Shown here piece by piece: positions 1-40,942 of a stretch of 40,942 bases of DNA. How positions within the stretch are numbered: the first letter of the stretch is position 1; each line of letters opens with the position of its first letter. The stretch is from a virus: IMG/VR virus record IMGVR_UViG_3300044966_000686, positions 1 to 40,942 of that record. The stretch is one strand, 5' to 3'. A program made the translations under genes and the position numbers. Below the pieces are notes generated by a model that was not told the DNA's origin, ran no database searches, and worked only from the letters and a program-made list of their open reading frames with translations.

Positions 1-155
1 CACCAGCCACCAGCCACCAGCCACCAGCCACCAGCCACCAGCCACCAGCCACCAGCCACCAGCCACCAGCCACCAGCCACCAGCCACCAGCCACCAGCCA
101 CCAGCCACCAGCCACCAGCCACCAGCCACCAGCCACCAGCCACCAGCCACCAGCC
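1..155. repeat. 7-bp tandem repeat array, left part
   Basis: About 22 uninterrupted copies of the 7-bp unit CCACCAG fill the left end and stop directly before the ATG of the lipoprotein gene. The same unit fills the right end of the window, so the molecule was probably circular or permuted and the assembly broke inside the array. The complementary strand reads CTGGTGG repeatedly, giving closely spaced GG pairs that could form weak two-tier quadruplexes. Direct joining of the two ends adds one extra C, so the true copy number is unknown. It is not a CRISPR: the unit is far too short and there are no spacers. Confidence 0.95.
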
Positions 156-4038: not shown

Positions 4039-4039
4039 C

Positions 4040-4063
4040 AAGTGGCATACAAAGTGGTGACCC
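4040..4063 (+). repeat. Integrase arm-type repeats, left pair
   Basis: Two direct copies of an AAGTGGYRWCC-like unit (AAGTGGCATAC and AAAGTGGTGACC) lie 40-60 bp left of the tRNA fragment. With the copies at 4161 and 4269 they flank the probable attP core, as arm-type integrase sites do in lambda-like systems. Confidence 0.5.
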
Positions 4064-4102
4064 TAAACACAACTTACTAATAATGAACGCACCATCCACA
4101 AA

Positions 4103-4144
4103 CTACGGATCAGAAGGTTTGTGGTTCGACTCCACATGGCTGCA
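4103..4144 (+). other. attP: attP core: 3' half of tRNA-Arg(ACG)
   Basis: These 42 nt match a tRNA from the anticodon loop to the discriminator base: anticodon loop CTACGGA (ACG), 3' anticodon stem TCAGA, variable AGGTT, T stem TGTGG/CCACA around loop TTCGACT, acceptor strand TGGCTGC and discriminator A, with no encoded CCA. The 5' half is missing: the bases to the left do not form the other half of the anticodon stem. A phage-borne 3' tRNA piece next to a tyrosine integrase is the usual attP core and restores the host tRNA after integration. The host attB should therefore be the tRNA-Arg(ACG) gene. Confidence 0.8.
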
Positions 4145-4160
4145 CTCCCCCTCTTCCCTT

Positions 4161-4172
4161 AAAGTGGCATCC
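4161..4172 (+). repeat. Integrase arm-type repeat, middle copy
   Basis: AAAGTGGCATCC lies 17 bp right of the tRNA fragment, in the same orientation as the other copies. Confidence 0.4.
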
Positions 4173-4268
4173 TTGCGCCTTTTTCCCTCTGTAGCACTCA
4201 GAAGATTGGTGTTTACTGGATTTTCGGGGGCTTGCAATGCTTGCGTGAATTGCTTTGTTTTTCAGGCC

Positions 4269-4304
4269 AAAGTGGTGTCCAAAGTGGTGTCCCGAGTGGT
4301 GACC
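4269..4304 (+). repeat. Integrase arm-type repeats, right triple
   Basis: Three back-to-back 12-bp units (AAAGTGGTGTCC twice, then a CGAGTGGTGACC variant) lie directly before the integrase gene. The 12-bp phase places them close to one helical turn apart. Besides attP binding they could mediate integrase autoregulation, because they lie 30-65 bp before its start codon. Confidence 0.55.
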
Positions 4305-4333: not shown

Positions 4334-5458
4334 ATGAGAAAACATGGCGAGATTTCGGTCGATTGGATTGCGGCTAAAAATACCTGGTATTTCCGAGTCC
4401 AGGTAAATGGCGAGCGGGTGAGCAAGAGCACAGGGGTGCATGTGCATTCCGCCGCAGGGAAGGCGGCGGCGCTGGGGAAGGCCAAGGCTATTGCCCTGGC
4501 GCTGGCGACGGCGGATGAGCACAAGATTGCGGCGGTCGTCAAGCGGCCGGGCTACGCTAAGTGTGGGGAGGTGGCGGTGATTTACAAGGACCATGGGCCG
4601 CAGAAGTCGGTGACGAAGAGCTTGAGCCGGTTTGCGGATTTTGTGCGCGAGGTGACGGGGCGTCAGGATTGGGAGGAACAGAGCACACACTTGGTGTTGA
4701 CGGCCTCGGCGCTGCGGGGGTGGATCGAGGTGCAGAAAAAGACAAAGAAAAAGAAAAACGGAATAGAAGGTGCCATGCGCTCGGAGAGCGGGATCCACAC
4801 GGATGTTCAAACGATCAAGAGCATCGTGGCTCGGAAAAGATTTTATTTGTTCAAGGACCTCAAGCTGCCGGACCTGGAGGAGTTTTGGAGTGTCTCGGGC
4901 GTTGCCGCTCAAGACCAGGCTTATGATCCACTGGGCCGAGAGGTGATGCGTGCCATGGATCAGGCGGCGAGGATCCCGCTGCGCAAGGCCAACCCGCGCG
5001 TGTGGGCGATTTACTGGCTCATGCGCAAGGCCGGGCTTCGGAATAGCGAGGTGCAGAAGCTGGAATGGAAATGGATTGAGATTAAAGAGGACAAGTCGGT
5101 TGAGATTGCCATGCTGCGGCGGGAGAATTGGAAGTCGAAGAATGGAAAGTATGGCCGCGTGCCGTTTAATCCCCGGCTCATGCGTTTGATTCGTGCTGTG
5201 CTCGGCGATGAGGGGGACCATGTGATCCCCAGGACAAGCGAGACGGACGCCTACAACCTCACGCATTACGACATCAATGAATTTGTGCGGCGGTTTATTC
5301 CCGACGGCAGCAAGGGGGCTTACAACCTACGGAAAGAATTTGGATCTGCGATTGTCGAGCGCAATGGAATTGAAACAGCCGCCAAGCTCCTGCGGGATAG
5401 CATCGCCGTGGTGGAGGCCCACTACTTCGGCCTGCTGGACCGCCCGAAGCCGCTGTAA
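4334..5458 (+). CDS. int: Tyrosine-family integrase
   Basis: A 374-residue site-specific recombinase that should integrate the phage at the tRNA-Arg gene. An N-terminal arm-binding part (about 1-60) and a core-binding part (about 90-190) precede the catalytic domain (about 205-370). Catalytic features visible are Arg in GLRNSEVQKLEW, Arg in YNLRKEFGS and the nucleophile Tyr in AHYFGLL. The usual HxxR is YNLR here, and the second His/Trp of box II appears to be Asp, as in some divergent members. A GGAG sequence stands 10-11 nt before the start. It is the last gene of the rightward arm, next to attP and its repeats. Confidence 0.92.
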   Translation: MRKHGEISVDWIAAKNTWYFRVQVNGERVSKSTGVHVHSAAGKAAALGKAKAIALALATADEHKIAAVVKRPGYAKCGEVAVIYKDHGPQKSVTKSLSRFADFVREVTGRQDWEEQSTHLVLTASALRGWIEVQKKTKKKKNGIEGAMRSESGIHTDVQTIKSIVARKRFYLFKDLKLPDLEEFWSVSGVAAQDQAYDPLGREVMRAMDQAARIPLRKANPRVWAIYWLMRKAGLRNSEVQKLEWKWIEIKEDKSVEIAMLRRENWKSKNGKYGRVPFNPRLMRLIRAVLGDEGDHVIPRTSETDAYNLTHYDINEFVRRFIPDGSKGAYNLRKEFGSAIVERNGIETAAKLLRDSIAVVEAHYFGLLDRPKPL

Positions 5459-5521: not shown

Positions 5522-8500
5522 TTATTCCATGAGGGCTTGTTGTTGGTCGCGGGCGGCGCGGAGGTCGAGGAACTCTTGCTTGGCTCGGGCGGTGAGGTCG
5601 GGGCGGGCGAGGAGGATGCGGTATTTGGCGGCAGTGGCGGCTTTCTCCAGGGCGCGGGTGAAGGCTTTGGCTTTGGTGTCCCAGGTGGCTTTAGCGTAGC
5701 GCGGGTCTTCGAGGACGAATTTCTCTACGGCGGCAACGCTGAGGGCTCCCATGTCTTTCTGCATGGCGCTGATCTCTTCGTCGGTGAGGCGGACTTTGAC
5801 GCCTTCGAGGGTGAACTCGGGCTTGACCTGGTTGGCCACGGCGCGGCCGTCGGCGGTGCGGCGGTAGATCTCACCCATTTCGGTGAGCACAGGGCTGCCT
5901 TTGATGTAGGTGACCATGCCGGGGTTGAACATGACATTGAAGATGGTGTTGCTGTCCTGCGCCCAGCGTTCCACGGGTTGCCCGGCGATGTCGTATTTTT
6001 GCGGAAGGGTTTTGCTCAGGCCAGGGAGTTGAGATTTGAGTTGGTTGACATACTGGCGGAAGGGCGAGCTGTCGCGGGTCTCTCGGCCGGCGTTGTCGTC
6101 GAGCTGCATCCACTGGCGGGCGCTGGTGGGAACGAAGCTGCCAGGGATGTCGGCGGCGGTCTGCACCACGGCTCCAATAAGGCCGTCGTAGCCTGCGTTG
6201 CGCATGAAGGAATTAATTCCGCTGAGGAGAGGTTGCTCGACGAGAGAGTTCATGGCTCCGGTAGCGGCTCCTGCTCCGTAGGCAAGCCAGTTCATACTGG
6301 TGGCGAGGAGGCTTTGGCGCTTGCCGCGTAGGATGTCTTCGCGAACGGCATCTTGGTTTTCCCTGGCGTAGGCTCCCATGGCGAGGCCGATGGAAAGGGG
6401 CTGTGCCCAATCGTAGCCCACTACCATGTCGCCTTTTTGTTGAGGTTGGCGGGTCCAGAAGTTGCCGGTCATGAGGGCGCGCTTGAGGGCATCCACATTA
6501 ACTTTGTAGTTTCCCCAGCCTCGGGCTTTGTCGAGGTTGCGCTTGTCTTCATCTTTGGCATCGCTCCCGGCGGAGATGATGCCGAGTTGCGCGAGCCAGT
6601 AGCCGGTGGCGACAAGGCCGGTCGTGCCGACGAGGGCGCGGGTGAAGGAATCCACAAACGCCTTTTGGTCAAATTCCTTGTTCTTGCTGAGGAGCGGGGC
6701 GATGCCTTCGTAGGCGTTGCCGATGAAGCCGAGCGGGGAAAACTCGATAGCCCGCGTGAGGATGGAGCCGGGCACTTGGGTGAATTTGAAAAGCATGGAG
6801 CCGAGGCCCCAGCGTTGGTTGGCATTGAGCACACGGCGGATGCCGCCGAGCGTGCGGCTGGCGGCATTGTCATCTTGGTATATGGCGCGGGAGGCGGCCA
6901 TGCGGGCGGAGGTAATCATGTCCGCATCGGGCGCAAGCATAGGGGTGCCGTTGGCTCGGGCTGCCTTCATGCTATTGTCGAGGCTGGCGCGGAAGGCGCT
7001 CTCGTAGAATCCCCGGTCGGCTATGGAGAGCACTGCGCCGAGGGTGGATTCGAGGTGGCGGAGGACGGGAGCGGTGAATGTGCCGCCGCTGTAGGCGCTG
7101 ATCTGCTGCGAGTCATACTTGCCGCTGGATTGCAGGCGGCCGAGGCGGACGAGGGTATCGACTCCTTCGGCGAGGCTTGGCAGCACGCCTTTGCCTTCGG
7201 AGCGGGCGAAGCGGTAGCCTGCCTGCACATCGCCCACGCCTGCGCCGAGGCCGACGAGGCGTTCACCGAGCGAGAGCCCAGTGCGTGTGCGCTCGCCGGT
7301 GCCGAGGCCCATGAGGGCATCCATAGGCACGGCGGCGGTGTCGGCAGCGAGGTCGCCTGCAAACATGAGCGTGTTGCCCAGCACATTTCGAGTCACCGTT
7401 TTGGTGTTGAGCAGCATCGAGAGCGTCTGGAAGGTGTCGATCTTGGCGAGCAGGCCGGGCGGCATGAACTCACGGTAAACGACGTCGAGCGCTTCGGCGG
7501 CCTTGACGAGCTTGATACGGGGATCGGTGGCGCGGTCGCGCTGGGCGAGGATGCGTTGCACCTTGGCGCTTTGGCCTGCGCCCCAATGCGGGATGCCCAG
7601 CATCTTGGCCATGCCTGCGTGTAGGCTGGTATCGGTGAGCTTGCCCTCGCGGTTGAGGCGCATGAGCCCGCCGAGTTTAGATTTATCCAGGCGGCGGTCG
7701 TTCTCGGCGGCAGCTTGCAGGTCTTGAAGGACTTTGGCGCGGGCGTCTCGCGAGGTTTTGAGGAAATCTTTGACGATGCTTTTGCTGATGCGCACGGCCC
7801 CTTTATCCGAGAGCCCTTCGGCGGTCAGGATGGTATGGGTGGCGGCCTCGGCGGCGAGCGGTGAGGGAGAGCCTATGATGGCGTCGCGGATGGCGATGTT
7901 CACTTTCACAGGGTCCACTCCGGCGGGGAGCTCGCTTTTGATGATGTCTTTATTGCCGACGATGGCTGCGGTGGCGGCCCCGTGGCGCACTTTGCCTACT
8001 TCGCCGCGCAGCTGGTCGGCCTCGTTGATCTTGCCTTGGATGGCCGTGCGCTGCTTCTCCGTCTTGCCCGAGGTGGCGGCTTGCGTGAGTTGCCGCTGGG
8101 CGAAGACTTCGATGCCTTGCGGCCCGAGGCGGGAGATCATAGAGAGGGCTTGAATGGCGCGGCCTTGGTCGGTGGCGCGGTTGGCCATCATGTTGGCAAT
8201 GGCTCCGGCATCCTCATGGCGTCCCCGGTTTTGGAGTTGCGACATGAGCTCCATGCCGGTGGCGTAGTCCACGGCGCTGGGTTGCCAATCTGTTACGGCG
8301 GTCTTGCCCATGAGGCCGGTGAATGCGGCGTCGATGCTGCCTGCGGCATCTATGCCCGCACGGGCGGAGGCCACGGTCTCGGCATTGCTGACCGGATCGT
8401 ATTCAAAAGAGTTGAGCTGCGCTTTAACCTCCGGCATGACGCCTTCGGCGGCTTGCACAGATTGGGTGAACTTGCGGGGCTTGGGCTCGGCGGCGGCAGA

Positions 8501-11500
8501 GATATTGCCATCAACATTTTTGTTGACGGGTCGCCGAAGCGACATAGCGTATTCAACAGAATACTTACCTGGAAGAGACTCTAGCGGGGGATTCGGCTCT
8601 ACATTCCCCTGAGCGGTTGGTCCAGGTGCTCTCGCCGATTGAGCAAAGGCGGCTCTGCGACCGTCAAGTATTCGCACCCCAGCTGGTTTCCAGCTGGGGT
8701 TCTTATTTGGGAACCCTGTAACTACCGAGTAATATCCTCCCTTATCCTCCCGCAACTCGATAATTGAAACAATGGTTGGCCTTCTTGAAAGTAAAGTCAG
8801 GCGACCATTTGGCTGCAAGTAAACTTCATTAAAATCCAACAACAACCGGTGAAGCACATTTTCCAAAGGTTCCTGGAAGGCTGCGAAATCTTGCTCATGT
8901 TCCGCACGGATGTGTTCAATTCCATATCCTTTGTTGGGACCAAAATGTTTTCCTTTTAAGATGCGAATCGGAAGAGATTTTAATTTCCCTTTTGAGCGAG
9001 CCTCGTCCAAATCGGTGAACACTCCCCAATCTTGGTGGCCAGCGGGAGAAAGGATGATGTCCGTGGGCTTGTAGCGGTCTTCGGCGGCGAAGCTGATGGA
9101 TGGAATGACGGCGGGTGCGGGATCAGGTTGCGAGCCTTCTTGAGCAAAAGCGATTTCACGGGAGACGGGCTGGCCGTTTTCGGCTTTGATCTTGATGAGG
9201 TTTTCGTCGAAGGCGACATAGTTGTATGTGCCTTGCCGTTCAGAACGACTTCCCCCATCGAGATAGCGGATGCCTTTGATGCCTGCGGCCAGCAGTTTCT
9301 CACTTGCTACTTTGGCATTCCCGGAGAAGCCTCTTGGAATGCGAGAGTAAATCATTTGCCCCTGTTCGTTGGCATCGTATTCGTCACTATCTGGACGATA
9401 ATCCGGATTCATTGCAGCAAGTGCTGCCTGCACTTTCTCACTCTGCTCAGAAAGTGGCTTGTCCCAGTCGAGCAAGTCTTCCGGCTCCGAATCGAGTTCG
9501 ACGGTGTAGAGGTTGCCGCTTCCTTCTTTGATGTCCTGAGGTGATGCGGACTTCAATAGTTCCAAAGAATTTGAAACGACCTGCATTTTAACTCCACCTT
9601 GATTGATACGGCGCTCAATACGGTCGGCTACCAGTCCAGCATTTAGAGAGTCTTTAGACTTAACCAACTCAGCCATCAAATTGATGTCTTGAAATGCATT
9701 GAGAAGATCAACATCAGACGCCTCAGAACTTCTCATAAGAGGGCGATTATTCACCTCATAGTAAGAAGATAATGCATTACGATACTCCTCCCCAACACTT
9801 CTTTCCTGCGCAAAATACAACCCCCACCCATAAGCCTGCGCCCCCTCGCCTGTGCCGATCTTCTCGGTGCTGAAACGGTCCACTTTATGAGGCGTCCCGT
9901 GGTAGGCTTCGATGGCGAGGTCGATGAGTCCAGGCTGATTGGTGATTTGCGCGTTTCCAAATGACTTGGTTGGCGGGCGCAAGGCGGGGGCGATGGTCTT
10001 GGCCAGGTCGCGGCGGAGAGCAGCGAGGTCGGTGGCAAATTGCGGAGTTCCAAAGGTGGATTGCGATTGGCGGTTGAGAAGCGAGTCCACCCACTCGTTG
10101 AAGGAGGTCCAGAGTTTTTGGACGAGGGGCTTGTTCTCATTGCGCACGGACTGCCAGAAAGACGGGTCGAGGAAGGCGTCGCCGAGTGTGTTGTTCGTGA
10201 GTTCGGCGGCTTGGGTGCGGGCACGCTGGGAGGCCGAGCCGGAGCGGTAGATGGGTGAGGCGGCAGACTCGCGGGCGCGGGCGCGGTAGTTATCGGTGTA
10301 GGTGGCTACGACACGGCGGAGGTCTTTGTAGAGCGCGGGCTGGGTGTATTGGAGCGAGTGCCCCCATTCATGGCCGATGAGGGCGGCGACGGGGCGCTGG
10401 CTCTCGGCATTGAGGAAAATGGTCTTGGCGTCGTCGCTGCGCACGGCTCCGCCAAAGATGGTGGGGTCGCTGGGTTTTACAAACTGGATGCGGGTCTCAG
10501 TGAGTTGGGAGAAGGTGTCGATGAAATCGGAAAGCCCGGCTCCGGCGTCCACTCGATCCAGGTTGACGGGTGTGAGCGTGAGGCTGGATCCGGAGTCGAT
10601 AACGCCCTGGGTGCCGAGTTGGCTTGTGAGTCGGGTGGAGAAATCTGCGGCAAGTGCGGTTTGCTCAGGGGTGATGGCATCGGTGGAGAAGGAGTAAGCT
10701 GGACGGGGCGGTGCGCCATCCGGCGTGGCGGTATCAATAGAGTTCCAATCGGAAACAGATGCCCCCTCCCCGGCGATCACTTCGGGTGAGCCTGTTGGTT
10801 CAGGCGCTGTGAGTGTGCTTGCTACGGGAGCAGAGGCCGTTGGCAGGGTAGTGTTCACCGGAGCAGGCGCAGGGTTAACCTGTGGGTTAACTGCGGCAGG
10901 CGGGGCGAAGGTATCATTTGATACCTCGGGCGGCGGGGCGAAGGTCGATCCGAAGGCTTCATCGAGGGCGGTCTGGTCGATGGGGATTTCGGGGGCGCGG
11001 ACTTGGCCGAGGGTGCGCGGGGCTTGGCCGGTGGGGGCGGATGGTGCCGGGGAGGAAATAGGAGTGAAGTTTTGCGGGACTTCGGCGGGGGCTGCGGCTT
11101 GGCGTCCGGCGGCGATCTCGATGGCGGCGGGTCCGACTTCGCCGATGACTTCTCCGAAGACGGCCTTGGGGTTTACTGGGTCTCCGGCTGCGACGGATCC
11201 GGCTACCTCGCCTGCTCCTCCAAGCCCTCCTTGGATGACTCCTTCTGTGACGGCCAGGCGGACAGGGGTCTTGGCGGCGGCGCGGAAGACTGAGCCGACT
11301 CGCCCGGCGATGCCTGCGGAGAGGGCGTCGAAGGCGGCAACGGGAACGCCTCGCTTGAGGGCGGCGTCTTTGGCTTCGGCCATGAGCGTTTCGTTGCTGA
11401 AAAATTTGGCGATGCTCTCGGGGTTTTTAGGATTCATCCCGGCGGTCTGCAACTCTTCGAGGATTTTGCTGCCGTATTCTGTGGCAAAGGAACCGGCGGC

Positions 11501-12565
11501 TGTGCCTCCGACCATGCCTGCGGTGAACCCACCGCCTGCGCCGATGACATTACCCACGCCTGGCACAACCGATCCAGCGGCACCGGTCGCAAGCGCAGTA
11601 GTGGCACCTGTGGCGAGGCCGCTTGCGAGGGCGGGCCAGCTTCCGGCGAGTCCTTCGGTGATGATATTTGCCGTAACCTCAAAAGGATTTTTGGCAAAGG
11701 CTTTGGCGGCATCCCAGCCTTCGGCTTGCTGGTAGGCGGCGTAGCCTGGGGCCACACGGCGGGCGGCTTTGTTGTATTCGATGCGGGCGATCTGCGAGGC
11801 GTCGTTCTCATCGAGACCATCGGTGGCCATGAGGGCTTGGCGGGCGGAGTCGAAAGCATTCTGCGCGGCGTTGGCTATGCCTTGGAGGGTGCCGACTTCT
11901 TTGGGAGATTCTTCGACGAGCATCTCGCCAGCGGCCATCGTCTGCATATTTGCAAGCTGCTTGGCAGCGGCGGCATTGGCTTCGGGGGAGACGGCTTGGG
12001 CGCGGCGGATGGTGACGGTGCCATCGGCGTTCACGGGGGCGGCTCCGAGTTGGACTTTCTCGTATTCGGGGAGGCCGAGGATCTCGCCCATGGCAGTGGC
12101 TTGCTGGCGGCGCTGGCCTTCCTCGGGGTCGCGGTAATCGAGCACGCCGAGGGCATTGGCGAGGTCGGACTTGAGGACGGGGAGATTCTCGGTGGGCGTG
12201 GTGGCCTCGGCGACGGCTTGCTGGGTGGCGGCTTGTTGAGGGTCGCCGTATTTGCGGGTCAGGAAATCCAGCGCGGCGTTGAATGTGTCTCCTTGCTCCA
12301 CCCGCGAGACTCGCGGCGGGGCGTAATCTTGGGCTGGCTCCTCATCTTGCAGCGGAACCATGGTTTGATCCTGCTCAGGCGGCATATCCACGGCACCGGC
12401 AGCAGGGTCCATCTCCGGCAGTGGGGTTTCAAAATCTATAATCTGAGCGCCTTCCATTGGAGTCGGAGCGGCAGAGGGGTCTATCCCGACATCGCCTGCG
12501 GGCGGTTGGGAGGGGTTGCCGTATTTGCGTTCCAGAAAATCGAGAGCGGCGTTAAATGAGGCCAT
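5522..12565 (-). CDS. Giant polyvalent internal virion protein (metallopeptidase, ART-like, nuclease-like)
   Basis: A 2347-residue protein, probably packaged and injected with the DNA, like other polyvalent proteins. The motif FNAALDFLxRKYGxP occurs twice near the N-terminus (about 4 and 96). Glycine/alanine-rich membrane-like stretches lie at about 310-480. A zinc metallopeptidase motif HEWGH is at 732-736. At about 885-1125 an ADP-ribosyltransferase-like module starts AYHGTPHK, contains GWGLYFAQE and ends NYVAFDENLIKI. At about 1176-1305 is a segment with GYGIEHIRAEHE resembling the barnase-EndoU-ColE5-RelE-like nucleases of polyvalent proteins. The remaining kilobase-scale C-terminus is helical and conserved-looking (NVLGNTLMFAGDL and similar). 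It is the last gene of the leftward unit, behind three other internal proteins. A leaderless-type promoter lies just before the start. Confidence 0.85.
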   Translation of the reverse strand: MASFNAALDFLERKYGNPSQPPAGDVGIDPSAAPTPMEGAQIIDFETPLPEMDPAAGAVDMPPEQDQTMVPLQDEEPAQDYAPPRVSRVEQGDTFNAALDFLTRKYGDPQQAATQQAVAEATTPTENLPVLKSDLANALGVLDYRDPEEGQRRQQATAMGEILGLPEYEKVQLGAAPVNADGTVTIRRAQAVSPEANAAAAKQLANMQTMAAGEMLVEESPKEVGTLQGIANAAQNAFDSARQALMATDGLDENDASQIARIEYNKAARRVAPGYAAYQQAEGWDAAKAFAKNPFEVTANIITEGLAGSWPALASGLATGATTALATGAAGSVVPGVGNVIGAGGGFTAGMVGGTAAGSFATEYGSKILEELQTAGMNPKNPESIAKFFSNETLMAEAKDAALKRGVPVAAFDALSAGIAGRVGSVFRAAAKTPVRLAVTEGVIQGGLGGAGEVAGSVAAGDPVNPKAVFGEVIGEVGPAAIEIAAGRQAAAPAEVPQNFTPISSPAPSAPTGQAPRTLGQVRAPEIPIDQTALDEAFGSTFAPPPEVSNDTFAPPAAVNPQVNPAPAPVNTTLPTASAPVASTLTAPEPTGSPEVIAGEGASVSDWNSIDTATPDGAPPRPAYSFSTDAITPEQTALAADFSTRLTSQLGTQGVIDSGSSLTLTPVNLDRVDAGAGLSDFIDTFSQLTETRIQFVKPSDPTIFGGAVRSDDAKTIFLNAESQRPVAALIGHEWGHSLQYTQPALYKDLRRVVATYTDNYRARARESAASPIYRSGSASQRARTQAAELTNNTLGDAFLDPSFWQSVRNENKPLVQKLWTSFNEWVDSLLNRQSQSTFGTPQFATDLAALRRDLAKTIAPALRPPTKSFGNAQITNQPGLIDLAIEAYHGTPHKVDRFSTEKIGTGEGAQAYGWGLYFAQERSVGEEYRNALSSYYEVNNRPLMRSSEASDVDLLNAFQDINLMAELVKSKDSLNAGLVADRIERRINQGGVKMQVVSNSLELLKSASPQDIKEGSGNLYTVELDSEPEDLLDWDKPLSEQSEKVQAALAAMNPDYRPDSDEYDANEQGQMIYSRIPRGFSGNAKVASEKLLAAGIKGIRYLDGGSRSERQGTYNYVAFDENLIKIKAENGQPVSREIAFAQEGSQPDPAPAVIPSISFAAEDRYKPTDIILSPAGHQDWGVFTDLDEARSKGKLKSLPIRILKGKHFGPNKGYGIEHIRAEHEQDFAAFQEPLENVLHRLLLDFNEVYLQPNGRLTLLSRRPTIVSIIELREDKGGYYSVVTGFPNKNPSWKPAGVRILDGRRAAFAQSARAPGPTAQGNVEPNPPLESLPGKYSVEYAMSLRRPVNKNVDGNISAAAEPKPRKFTQSVQAAEGVMPEVKAQLNSFEYDPVSNAETVASARAGIDAAGSIDAAFTGLMGKTAVTDWQPSAVDYATGMELMSQLQNRGRHEDAGAIANMMANRATDQGRAIQALSMISRLGPQGIEVFAQRQLTQAATSGKTEKQRTAIQGKINEADQLRGEVGKVRHGAATAAIVGNKDIIKSELPAGVDPVKVNIAIRDAIIGSPSPLAAEAATHTILTAEGLSDKGAVRISKSIVKDFLKTSRDARAKVLQDLQAAAENDRRLDKSKLGGLMRLNREGKLTDTSLHAGMAKMLGIPHWGAGQSAKVQRILAQRDRATDPRIKLVKAAEALDVVYREFMPPGLLAKIDTFQTLSMLLNTKTVTRNVLGNTLMFAGDLAADTAAVPMDALMGLGTGERTRTGLSLGERLVGLGAGVGDVQAGYRFARSEGKGVLPSLAEGVDTLVRLGRLQSSGKYDSQQISAYSGGTFTAPVLRHLESTLGAVLSIADRGFYESAFRASLDNSMKAARANGTPMLAPDADMITSARMAASRAIYQDDNAASRTLGGIRRVLNANQRWGLGSMLFKFTQVPGSILTRAIEFSPLGFIGNAYEGIAPLLSKNKEFDQKAFVDSFTRALVGTTGLVATGYWLAQLGIISAGSDAKDEDKRNLDKARGWGNYKVNVDALKRALMTGNFWTRQPQQKGDMVVGYDWAQPLSIGLAMGAYARENQDAVREDILRGKRQSLLATSMNWLAYGAGAATGAMNSLVEQPLLSGINSFMRNAGYDGLIGAVVQTAADIPGSFVPTSARQWMQLDDNAGRETRDSSPFRQYVNQLKSQLPGLSKTLPQKYDIAGQPVERWAQDSNTIFNVMFNPGMVTYIKGSPVLTEMGEIYRRTADGRAVANQVKPEFTLEGVKVRLTDEEISAMQKDMGALSVAAVEKFVLEDPRYAKATWDTKAKAFTRALEKAATAAKYRILLARPDLTARAKQEFLDLRAARDQQQALME
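8676..8700. repeat. Perfect hairpin inside the polyvalent gene
   Basis: An 11-bp perfect inverted repeat (ACCCCAGCTGG and its complement) separated by TTT lies within codons for the end of the nuclease-like module. There is no T-run, so it is not a standard terminator. Confidence 0.6.
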
Positions 12566-38880: not shown

Positions 38881-39717
38881 TTAGTTAGTGGAAAGCTCCT
38901 CAGCGGCCTCCTGCGATACAGAGGCCCCTTTGCATAAAATTTTCTGCTCACCCAAATCAGTGCTATGTAATGGGGGGGTGTCCGAAAATCCGACCCCCTC
39001 CCCCCCCTCTTGATCGACCGCCACGGCCTCGACCTCGACCGGCTCGACGGCGCAAGTGGTGTCTAAAGTGGTGTCCCGCCTGCCGTCTGCGTAGTATAAC
39101 CCTTCTGATTCGGTATCAGAGACCAGCCCGGCCAGGCATCCCGACACGCTCCCGGCACCCACGCCAAGCAGCCCCTTTTGTGTGGACCCGCTCCCGCTTG
39201 GACCGGTTACCGGGACAACTTCGGCCTCGAGGAGCGGCAGGCTGGCCAGCATCTCGCTTAGTTTGTCCTGGGAAACCTCAACCTTCTCCACCCGGCTTGT
39301 CGCCTCACCCGATAACAACTGCAGCTTGTCCACCATCACAGCGGCCACAATGGCCGCATCCTTGGCGTTGTTAATAGTCGGCACCAACTCAACGACCCGC
39401 TCCACCGAAAGCCGCGCCGCAGTCCGCACATTCCGCAGCAACTCCTTTTTATGCTGCTCTATAGAAATTCCTTCTCGCTCTTGGACCGCCGCCACCGTGT
39501 TGCGGCTGACTCCCAAGGCTCGAGCCATGGCCGACATGCTCAGCCCCTCGGCGCTCATGCGGCAGATCGCCCGGTAAACCTCCGGCCGGCGGGCAAGCAA
39601 CCGCTCCCCGCTAAACTCTCCAGTAGCCTCGAGCTTCTCAGCCCCGATTTCCGCCTCCGCAAAAAGAAAAGGCGCGGCAGACTCCAAGGCGTCGGCTTTC
39701 ATCAAAGGGGATTCCAT
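38881..39717 (-). CDS. HTH DNA-binding protein, terminase small subunit candidate
   Basis: A 278-residue protein. Residues about 44-78 contain a helix-turn-helix (RAICRMSAEGLSMSAMARAL, then GVSRNTVAAVQ). Helices to about 150 include NNAKDAAIVAAVMVDKLQLL and a short LSGEAT segment, a layout seen in some terminase small subunits and phage regulators. The C-terminal 120 residues are low complexity and acidic. Two copies of the integrase-type repeat (39053-39076) and homopolymer tracts (38972-38978, 39000-39007) lie in its coding sequence. Terminase recognition, regulation or partition are all possible. Confidence 0.7.
   Translation of the reverse strand: MESPLMKADALESAAPFLFAEAEIGAEKLEATGEFSGERLLARRPEVYRAICRMSAEGLSMSAMARALGVSRNTVAAVQEREGISIEQHKKELLRNVRTAARLSVERVVELVPTINNAKDAAIVAAVMVDKLQLLSGEATSRVEKVEVSQDKLSEMLASLPLLEAEVVPVTGPSGSGSTQKGLLGVGAGSVSGCLAGLVSDTESEGLYYADGRRDTTLDTTCAVEPVEVEAVAVDQEGGEGVGFSDTPPLHSTDLGEQKILCKGASVSQEAAEELSTN
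38972..39007. repeat. G7 and C8 homopolymer tracts
   Basis: A G7 run (38972-38978) and a C8 run (39000-39007) lie in the 3' part of the HTH gene. Such tracts slip easily, so they could vary the protein's C-terminus or be sequencing errors. Confidence 0.6.
39053..39076 (+). repeat. Distal copies of the integrase arm-type repeat
   Basis: Two back-to-back 12-bp units (CAAGTGGTGTCT, AAAGTGGTGTCC) are nearly identical to the pair at 4269-4292, in the same orientation, but about 6 kb away across the circular junction. They lie inside the HTH protein gene. Confidence 0.5.
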
Positions 39718-40494: not shown

Positions 40495-40806
40495 ATGCTA
40501 AAAACTAAAAAAATCGATGTTCGTTTAGATCAAGAGCTTTTCGATTTGGTTGACAATTACGCAAAATCTTCGCGCCTCAGCCGTGCTCAAGTAGTAGAGC
40601 GGGCCTTATTACAATTATTTGGACGGCCTGTAATGGATAACCCAATTACCCAGGGAAACGCCGCGCCCCTCAAATCTTCGCAAAAATCATCAAGCAAACC
40701 GTCCAATGTCTCCCCTCCTGTTGGTGCCGAAATAGCGACTATCAACGAACCTTTAGACTCTGGGTCCGCGCCAGCGAGACGCCCGAGCTCCCGCCAGGCT
40801 GGTTAG
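40495..40806 (+). CDS. Ribbon-helix-helix regulator, head of the rightward unit
   Basis: A 103-residue protein. The first 42 residues (MLKTKKIDVRLDQELFDLVD, then NYAKSSRLSRAQVVERALLQ) are a clear RHH domain; the rest is polar and likely disordered. It begins the rightward unit that leads to attP and the integrase, so it is the likely lysogenic repressor, opposed by the RHH protein at 40207-40398. A GTG start at 40471 would include the operator sequence in the gene and is less likely; GGGGTG stands before the chosen ATG. Confidence 0.8.
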   Translation: MLKTKKIDVRLDQELFDLVDNYAKSSRLSRAQVVERALLQLFGRPVMDNPITQGNAAPLKSSQKSSSKPSNVSPPVGAEIATINEPLDSGSAPARRPSSRQAG

Positions 40807-40824
40807 CCGAGGTAATCCACATCG

Positions 40825-40942
40825 CCAGCCACCAGCCACCAGCCACCAGCCACCAGCCACCAGCCACCAGCCACCAGCCACCAGCCACCAGCCACCAGCC
40901 ACCAGCCACCAGCCACCAGCCACCAGCCACCAGCCACCAGCC
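40825..40942. repeat. 7-bp tandem repeat array, right part
   Basis: About 17 copies of CCACCAG fill the right end after the RHH gene stop and a short spacer. Joined to the left part they would form about 39 copies, with the phase off by one base at the join, so the real array is probably longer or the ends are trimmed. Confidence 0.95.

Follow-up and report, generated by a model that had tools for sequence, protein, structure and literature searches.

Positions 4103–4144 of the window (the whole 40,942-nucleotide stretch of viral DNA analyzed here) form, with a probability that we put at roughly 93% from sequence comparisons, the attP core of a temperate Verrucomicrobiota phage. The segment is the 3' part of a tRNA-Arg(ACG), running from the anticodon loop to the discriminator base (tRNA positions 32–73). 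The finding itself is correct and rather ordinary, the core being of the usual 3' type. In addition, we see about even odds that the coding tail of a helix-turn-helix (HTH) gene contains a dedicated second composite integrase site that co-evolves with both integrase specificities and regulates lysogeny or recombination, as an intragenic operator or a decoy att.

The attP core and its host tRNA gene

The window is an IMG/VR virus record (IMGVR_UViG_3300044966_000686) that encodes an SU10-type major capsid protein, a terminase, DnaB and a tyrosine integrase. The core (CTACGGA-TCAGA-AGGTT-TGTGG-TTCGACT-CCACA-TGGCTGC-A) comprises, in this order, the anticodon loop with the ACG anticodon, the 3' anticodon stem, the variable loop, a perfect T arm, the 3' acceptor strand and the discriminator. 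It lies between phage genes, 190 bp upstream of the tyrosine integrase ORF, which starts at 4334. A preliminary description of this DNA had identified the segment as an attP core made of the 3' part of tRNA-Arg(ACG), had listed the same loop, T arm, acceptor strand and discriminator, and had noted the missing 5' half and the adjoining integrase; the sequence and the intact host tRNA bear this out in every part. ARAGORN called no complete tRNA in the window. The next-best match to the 42-mer inside the window was 24/42, which excludes chance for the core. The run of identity with intact tRNAs spans 4102–4145 (genome G001) or 4102–4146 (genome G387), placing the limits first proposed within one or two bases of the mark. 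The features of the attP region are as follows.

4039–4062, + strand: tandem arm-type-like sites CAAGTGGCATAC / AAAGTGGTGACC, P arm; 40 bp lie between them and the overlap
4103–4144, + strand: attP core, tRNA-Arg(ACG) positions 32–73 (run identical to host tRNA, 4102–4145)
4103–4109, + strand: CTACGGA, anticodon loop, probable 7-bp strand-exchange overlap
4161–4172, + strand: arm-type-like site AAAGTGGCATCC, P' side
4198–4206, + strand: putative additional core-type half-site TCAGAAGAT, read off the sequences; counterpart in Lys-tRNA phages TCAACTGAC
4269–4304, + strand: three arm-type-like sites in tandem (12-bp period), closely preceding the integrase start
4334–5458, + strand: tyrosine integrase, 374 aa (Pfam PF00589 barely over the cut-off; PHROG integrase, 1.5e-10)

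An inverted repeat around the window core (CCACAAA...TTTGTGG) was dismissed as a chance feature; it is lost in relatives with a GAGG core.

The prediction that a host tRNA-Arg(ACG) with an identical end exists was confirmed. When 84,980 species genomes were scanned for exact copies, the 42-mer turned up in two, both Verrucomicrobiota MAGs (a Spartobacteria bacterium and a Verrucomicrobia bacterium), and our literature search found no papers naming either. In one of them (L003/G001) an intact tRNA-Arg(ACG) at L003:6101–6177 ends in the exact 42-mer; an intact tRNA-Arg(ACG) gene with the identical 3' end is also present in G387. In the other (L002/G002) the 42-mer follows an integrase gene and is itself followed by host-type downstream sequence, an attR-like arrangement. 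The same genome holds a GAGG end in a tRNA next to this attR-like GTGG end, which suggests exchange of the 3' half by integration; the alternative is a mixture of strains in the MAG. Two contigs of G002 (C146 and C218) contain an element with a 29%-identical integrase at the same tRNA-Arg, with two 3' ends, and C146 looks like the attR of this other element.

A GTGG or GAGG T-stem end was found by pattern search in 14/213 genomes of the order of G001, and a GAAAG...CTTTCCGGCTGCA variant in four genomes of its family. The exact window end occurs in 3 of the 26 genomes of one Verrucomicrobiota family, the others having sister variants. The related phages, for their part, show all three tRNA variants in their attP cores: GTGG in the window, L081, L082 and L083, GAGG in L005–L018, and GAAAG with CGGCTGC in L019. 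Because each core variant has a matching intact tRNA within one Verrucomicrobiota family, the core tracks the host family, not the species; the earlier claim that the core end identifies the host therefore holds at the family level and fails at the species level. Acceptor pair 7:66, which is split between the host and phage halves, matches in both combinations (GCAGCCA/TGGCTGC and GCAGCCG/CGGCTGC), with T66 in GCAGCCA hosts, C66 in GCAGCCG hosts, and the phages likewise. Two viral contigs with a full tRNA-Arg (L099 and L100) have no related integrase and were set aside. Hosts of uncultured phages have been assigned by attP–tRNA identity before (Mizuno et al., 2013; PMC3861242), with similar match lengths (42–46 bp) and including a marine Verrucomicrobia phage; in contrast to that work, three core variants here match three tRNA variants of one family.

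The window is best read, from its repeats, as a free circular genome cut at a 7-bp repeat, with attP unintegrated. A (CACCAGC)n tandem repeat occupies both contig ends (window 1–155 and 40825–40942), and in L010 an internal copy joins matches to window 40738–40942 and 29–943. The repeat is internal in L010, L013, L018 and L019 and varies in copy number. Integrases of more than 35% identity were absent from the genomes searched, and among these genomes we found neither a lysogen of close relatives (attL/attR at tRNA-Arg) nor a prophage carrying this integrase at another site. An integrated element of this general type does exist: in G193 an integrase of 28% identity adjoins a tRNA-Thr(TGT), and perfect 45-bp repeats from the tRNA-Thr anticodon loop lie at C3:92719 and C3:147229, 54.5 kb apart. 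Elsewhere in the window, a 2347-aa protein (5522–12565) has a weak ART-PolyVal match.

Probable crossover segment, arm-type-like sites and integrase

About 40 phages with related integrases have the same tRNA end as their core, which was present, always before the integrase, in every relative whose upstream region could be read. In all phages with the 3' half, identity between attP and host tRNA starts at C32, with which the anticodon loop begins. Phages of a sister group (L163, L172, L174, L176, L180, L182, L183, L191, L194, L211 and L212), whose integrases share ~40% identity with the query L132, have the complementary half instead; in them TCCGTAG precedes the 5' half of the tRNA in reverse complement, which runs to GGCTGC or GGCCGC. 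Here the tRNA identity ends at A38. Since CTACGGA is the only segment common to the 3'-half and 5'-half attP, we infer that crossover occurs within this 7-bp anticodon loop. The 5'-half phages would have to supply the tRNA promoter as well. In other relatives the core is the 3' half of a tRNA read as tRNA-Lys(CTT).

An overlap in the anticodon loop has been described for this sublocation class (Williams, 2002; PMC8371274). As in that class, the tRNA 3' part in attP begins with the anticodon loop, whose 7 bp probably form the overlap, and the tRNA gene would be restored. Unlike that class, a single integrase family here includes phages with the 3' half and phages with the 5' half of the same tRNA-Arg.

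Direct repeats of 12 bp flank the core on both sides (starting at 4039, 4051, 4161, 4269, 4281 and 4293). In L005–L009 the arm repeats are AAAGTTGTCCCC, replacing the window type; residues 1–60 of these integrases are ~40% identical to those of the window integrase, and the catalytic parts are up to 100% identical. The arm class thus appears to switch together with the integrase N-terminus, as an arm-binding N-terminal domain predicts. In the arm-binding (AB-domain) subgroup of integrases, arm repeats are contacted by an N-terminal three-stranded sheet and a helix; for the window integrase, a low-confidence model (mean pLDDT 49) places strands at residues 9–12, 17–24 and 27–32 and a helix at 40–59. 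In the attP of mycobacteriophage cluster K (PMC3203893), direct repeats flanking the core likewise serve as arm-type sites, and another site consensus accompanies changes in the integrase N-terminus. Arm sites directly upstream of the integrase gene and beside the core are also shared with KplE1, whose intS is autoregulated (PMC2951348).

Alignment of the catalytic pentad (canonically RKHRH) gave R236, K269, R333 and the nucleophile Y364, with both His replaced (Y330 and D355); the second pentad His is retained in the L010–L019 integrases. Over the last 50 residues, comparison with relatives showed 8–12 synonymous and zero non-synonymous codon differences, which points to strong purifying selection on the C-terminus despite the loss of His. 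By analogy, the G193 element suggests that enzymes of such a type may work. The integrases of G193 and G130 likewise have no second pentad His. Searches with the integrase returned no relevant match among PDB sequences and zero matches among 50,697 phage records.

Debris of tRNA genes can occur in phage genomes, and the genomes searched yielded no lysogen of the window phage, as would be expected if the core were a remnant of a tRNA, fossil or acquired by chance, that plays no part in integration. Such a remnant is nevertheless very improbable, because the core is kept at one place before the integrase, its variants match host tRNAs, arm-like repeats flank it, and in distant relatives other tRNAs occupy this position, in one case within an integrated prophage. 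For the attP reading we propose that the tyrosine integrase would recombine the core with the host tRNA-Arg(ACG) gene, strands being exchanged within CTACGGA. With the identical 3' half supplied by the phage, attL would contain a rebuilt tRNA gene, and the host's original 3' half would end up in attR. The 12-bp AAAGTGGTGTCC-like arm sites on both sides of the core would be bound by the integrase's N-terminal domain.

A second composite site in the HTH gene

A similar combination of elements recurs at 39053–39120, in the 3' part of the HTH gene. Its features are as follows.

38881–39717, − strand: gene for an HTH DNA-binding protein, 278 aa; the predicted disordered tail contains the second site
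39053–39076, + strand: second composite site, tandem arm-type-like sites CAAGTGGTGTCT / AAAGTGGTGTCC
39104–39120, + strand: second composite site, dyad TCTGA-TTCGGTA-TCAGA, similar to the anticodon stem of tRNA-Arg; it occurs once in the window

With its P-arm-like tandem and core dyad, this would be an attR-like composite in which both integrase specificities are met again. The spacing from arm to overlap is 32 bp in the class of the window and 41 bp in most classes; at the P arm of attP it is 39–41 bp. Among relatives with sequence extending to this locus, 28/30 3'-Arg phages, 5/5 Lys phages of one sub-clade and 8/8 5'-Arg phages have the site, which is absent from five Lys phages of another sub-clade (L154–L158) and from L159 and L162. 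In the 5'-half phages it is located on the opposite side of the integrase and on the opposite strand. A TCAGATG half-site matching the 5'-side stem occurs in 6/8 second sites of these phages.

Across ~40 phages, the second-site arms follow the phage's own integrase and the dyad follows its own tRNA (Arg or Lys), the Lys-phage dyad being TTGA-N7-TCAA, the pattern of their tRNA stem. Own attP arms matched own second-site arms at a mean of 11.2/12, the best of 10,000 between-phage shuffles giving 10.6, and within the 3'-Arg phages alone the own-arm fit was 11.5 and the best shuffle 11.1; the phages are related, so these shuffles carry no formal probability. One phage (L009/L121/L197) has second-site arms of another class. 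The central 7 bp mismatch the attP overlap and vary freely between phages, from which binding without productive recombination would follow. Codons are fixed in the HTH tail at S200, D201, S204 and T217, with TCT, GAT and TCA frozen at the site; elsewhere in the HTH gene, 1/36 six-codon residues is codon-fixed.

The dyad lies in frame within the coding region and Ser204 is invariant, as would be seen if a conserved peptide motif (SDxxSE) yielded the dyad by coincidence. We consider this hardly credible, because the Ser residues are always encoded by TCT and TCA (of 38 conserved six-codon residues three are codon-fixed, and two of the three are these) and because in Lys-tRNA phages the dyad takes the form matching their tRNA and the arms vary according to integrase class. 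An active recombination site acting between identical copies, for dimer resolution or the exchange of segments between co-infecting phages, would explain both the full core dyad with arms and the difference in the central 7 bp between phages, which would be free to diverge if recombination took place solely between like copies. It is an unlikely function, however: attP x attP could serve equally, in the 5'-half phages the site differs in both strand and side relative to the integrase, and an unsystematic look noticed no rearranged contigs joined at the overlap. We lean slightly towards a regulatory target or topological enhancer, at which bound integrase would control the HTH operon or attP with no recombination. 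This fits the spacing close to that of the attP P arm (41 bp, or 32 bp in the class of the window), the arms and dyad that follow the phage's own integrase specificity, the codons frozen in a predicted disordered tail, and the variable centre; regulation by an integrase has a precedent in autoregulation at att sites (PMC2951348). Against it, the site is dispensed with in two sub-clades. Integrase binding without recombination with attP is the simplest reading, which we favor: integrase at the second site would bind without productive recombination with attP or attB and may act as a regulator, roadblock or decoy.

Sites in cluster K (PMC3203893) were described at attP, whereas the second composite site lies ~5.9 kb away and is intragenic; compared with KplE1 intS (PMC2951348), too, it is intragenic and distant from the integrase gene. 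A literature search found no second integrase site away from attP, a weak piece of evidence.

The HTH tail has further repeats. A different inverted repeat, like GTTATCAACTTGATAAC, is present in L159, L162 and L089, where the second site is missing, and a conserved G-rich/C-rich inverted repeat lies just past the second site (window 38960–39010). Many related contigs end near the latter repeat, and two (L012 and L082) start inside the second-site arms, at the equivalents of window 39055 and 39059. We discarded the idea that these contig ends are recombination or packaging ends; the conserved poly-G hairpin nearby is a simpler cause. Assignment of the HTH protein as a small terminase subunit was also dropped, a fold search of a low-confidence model having given no significant match.

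Implications for the phage family

Through its tRNA core, an uncultured phage with a genome of 41 kb is tied to a family of Verrucomicrobiota. Members of a single integrase family use the same tRNA gene from either side. The relatives amount to a natural experiment in which arm sites switch with the N-terminal domain and core half-sites with the tRNA. Should the second site prove to be what it resembles, then integrases can possess a cis target of their own at a distance from attP, built into the genome, and integrase control of lysogeny would be testable by silent mutations in one gene.
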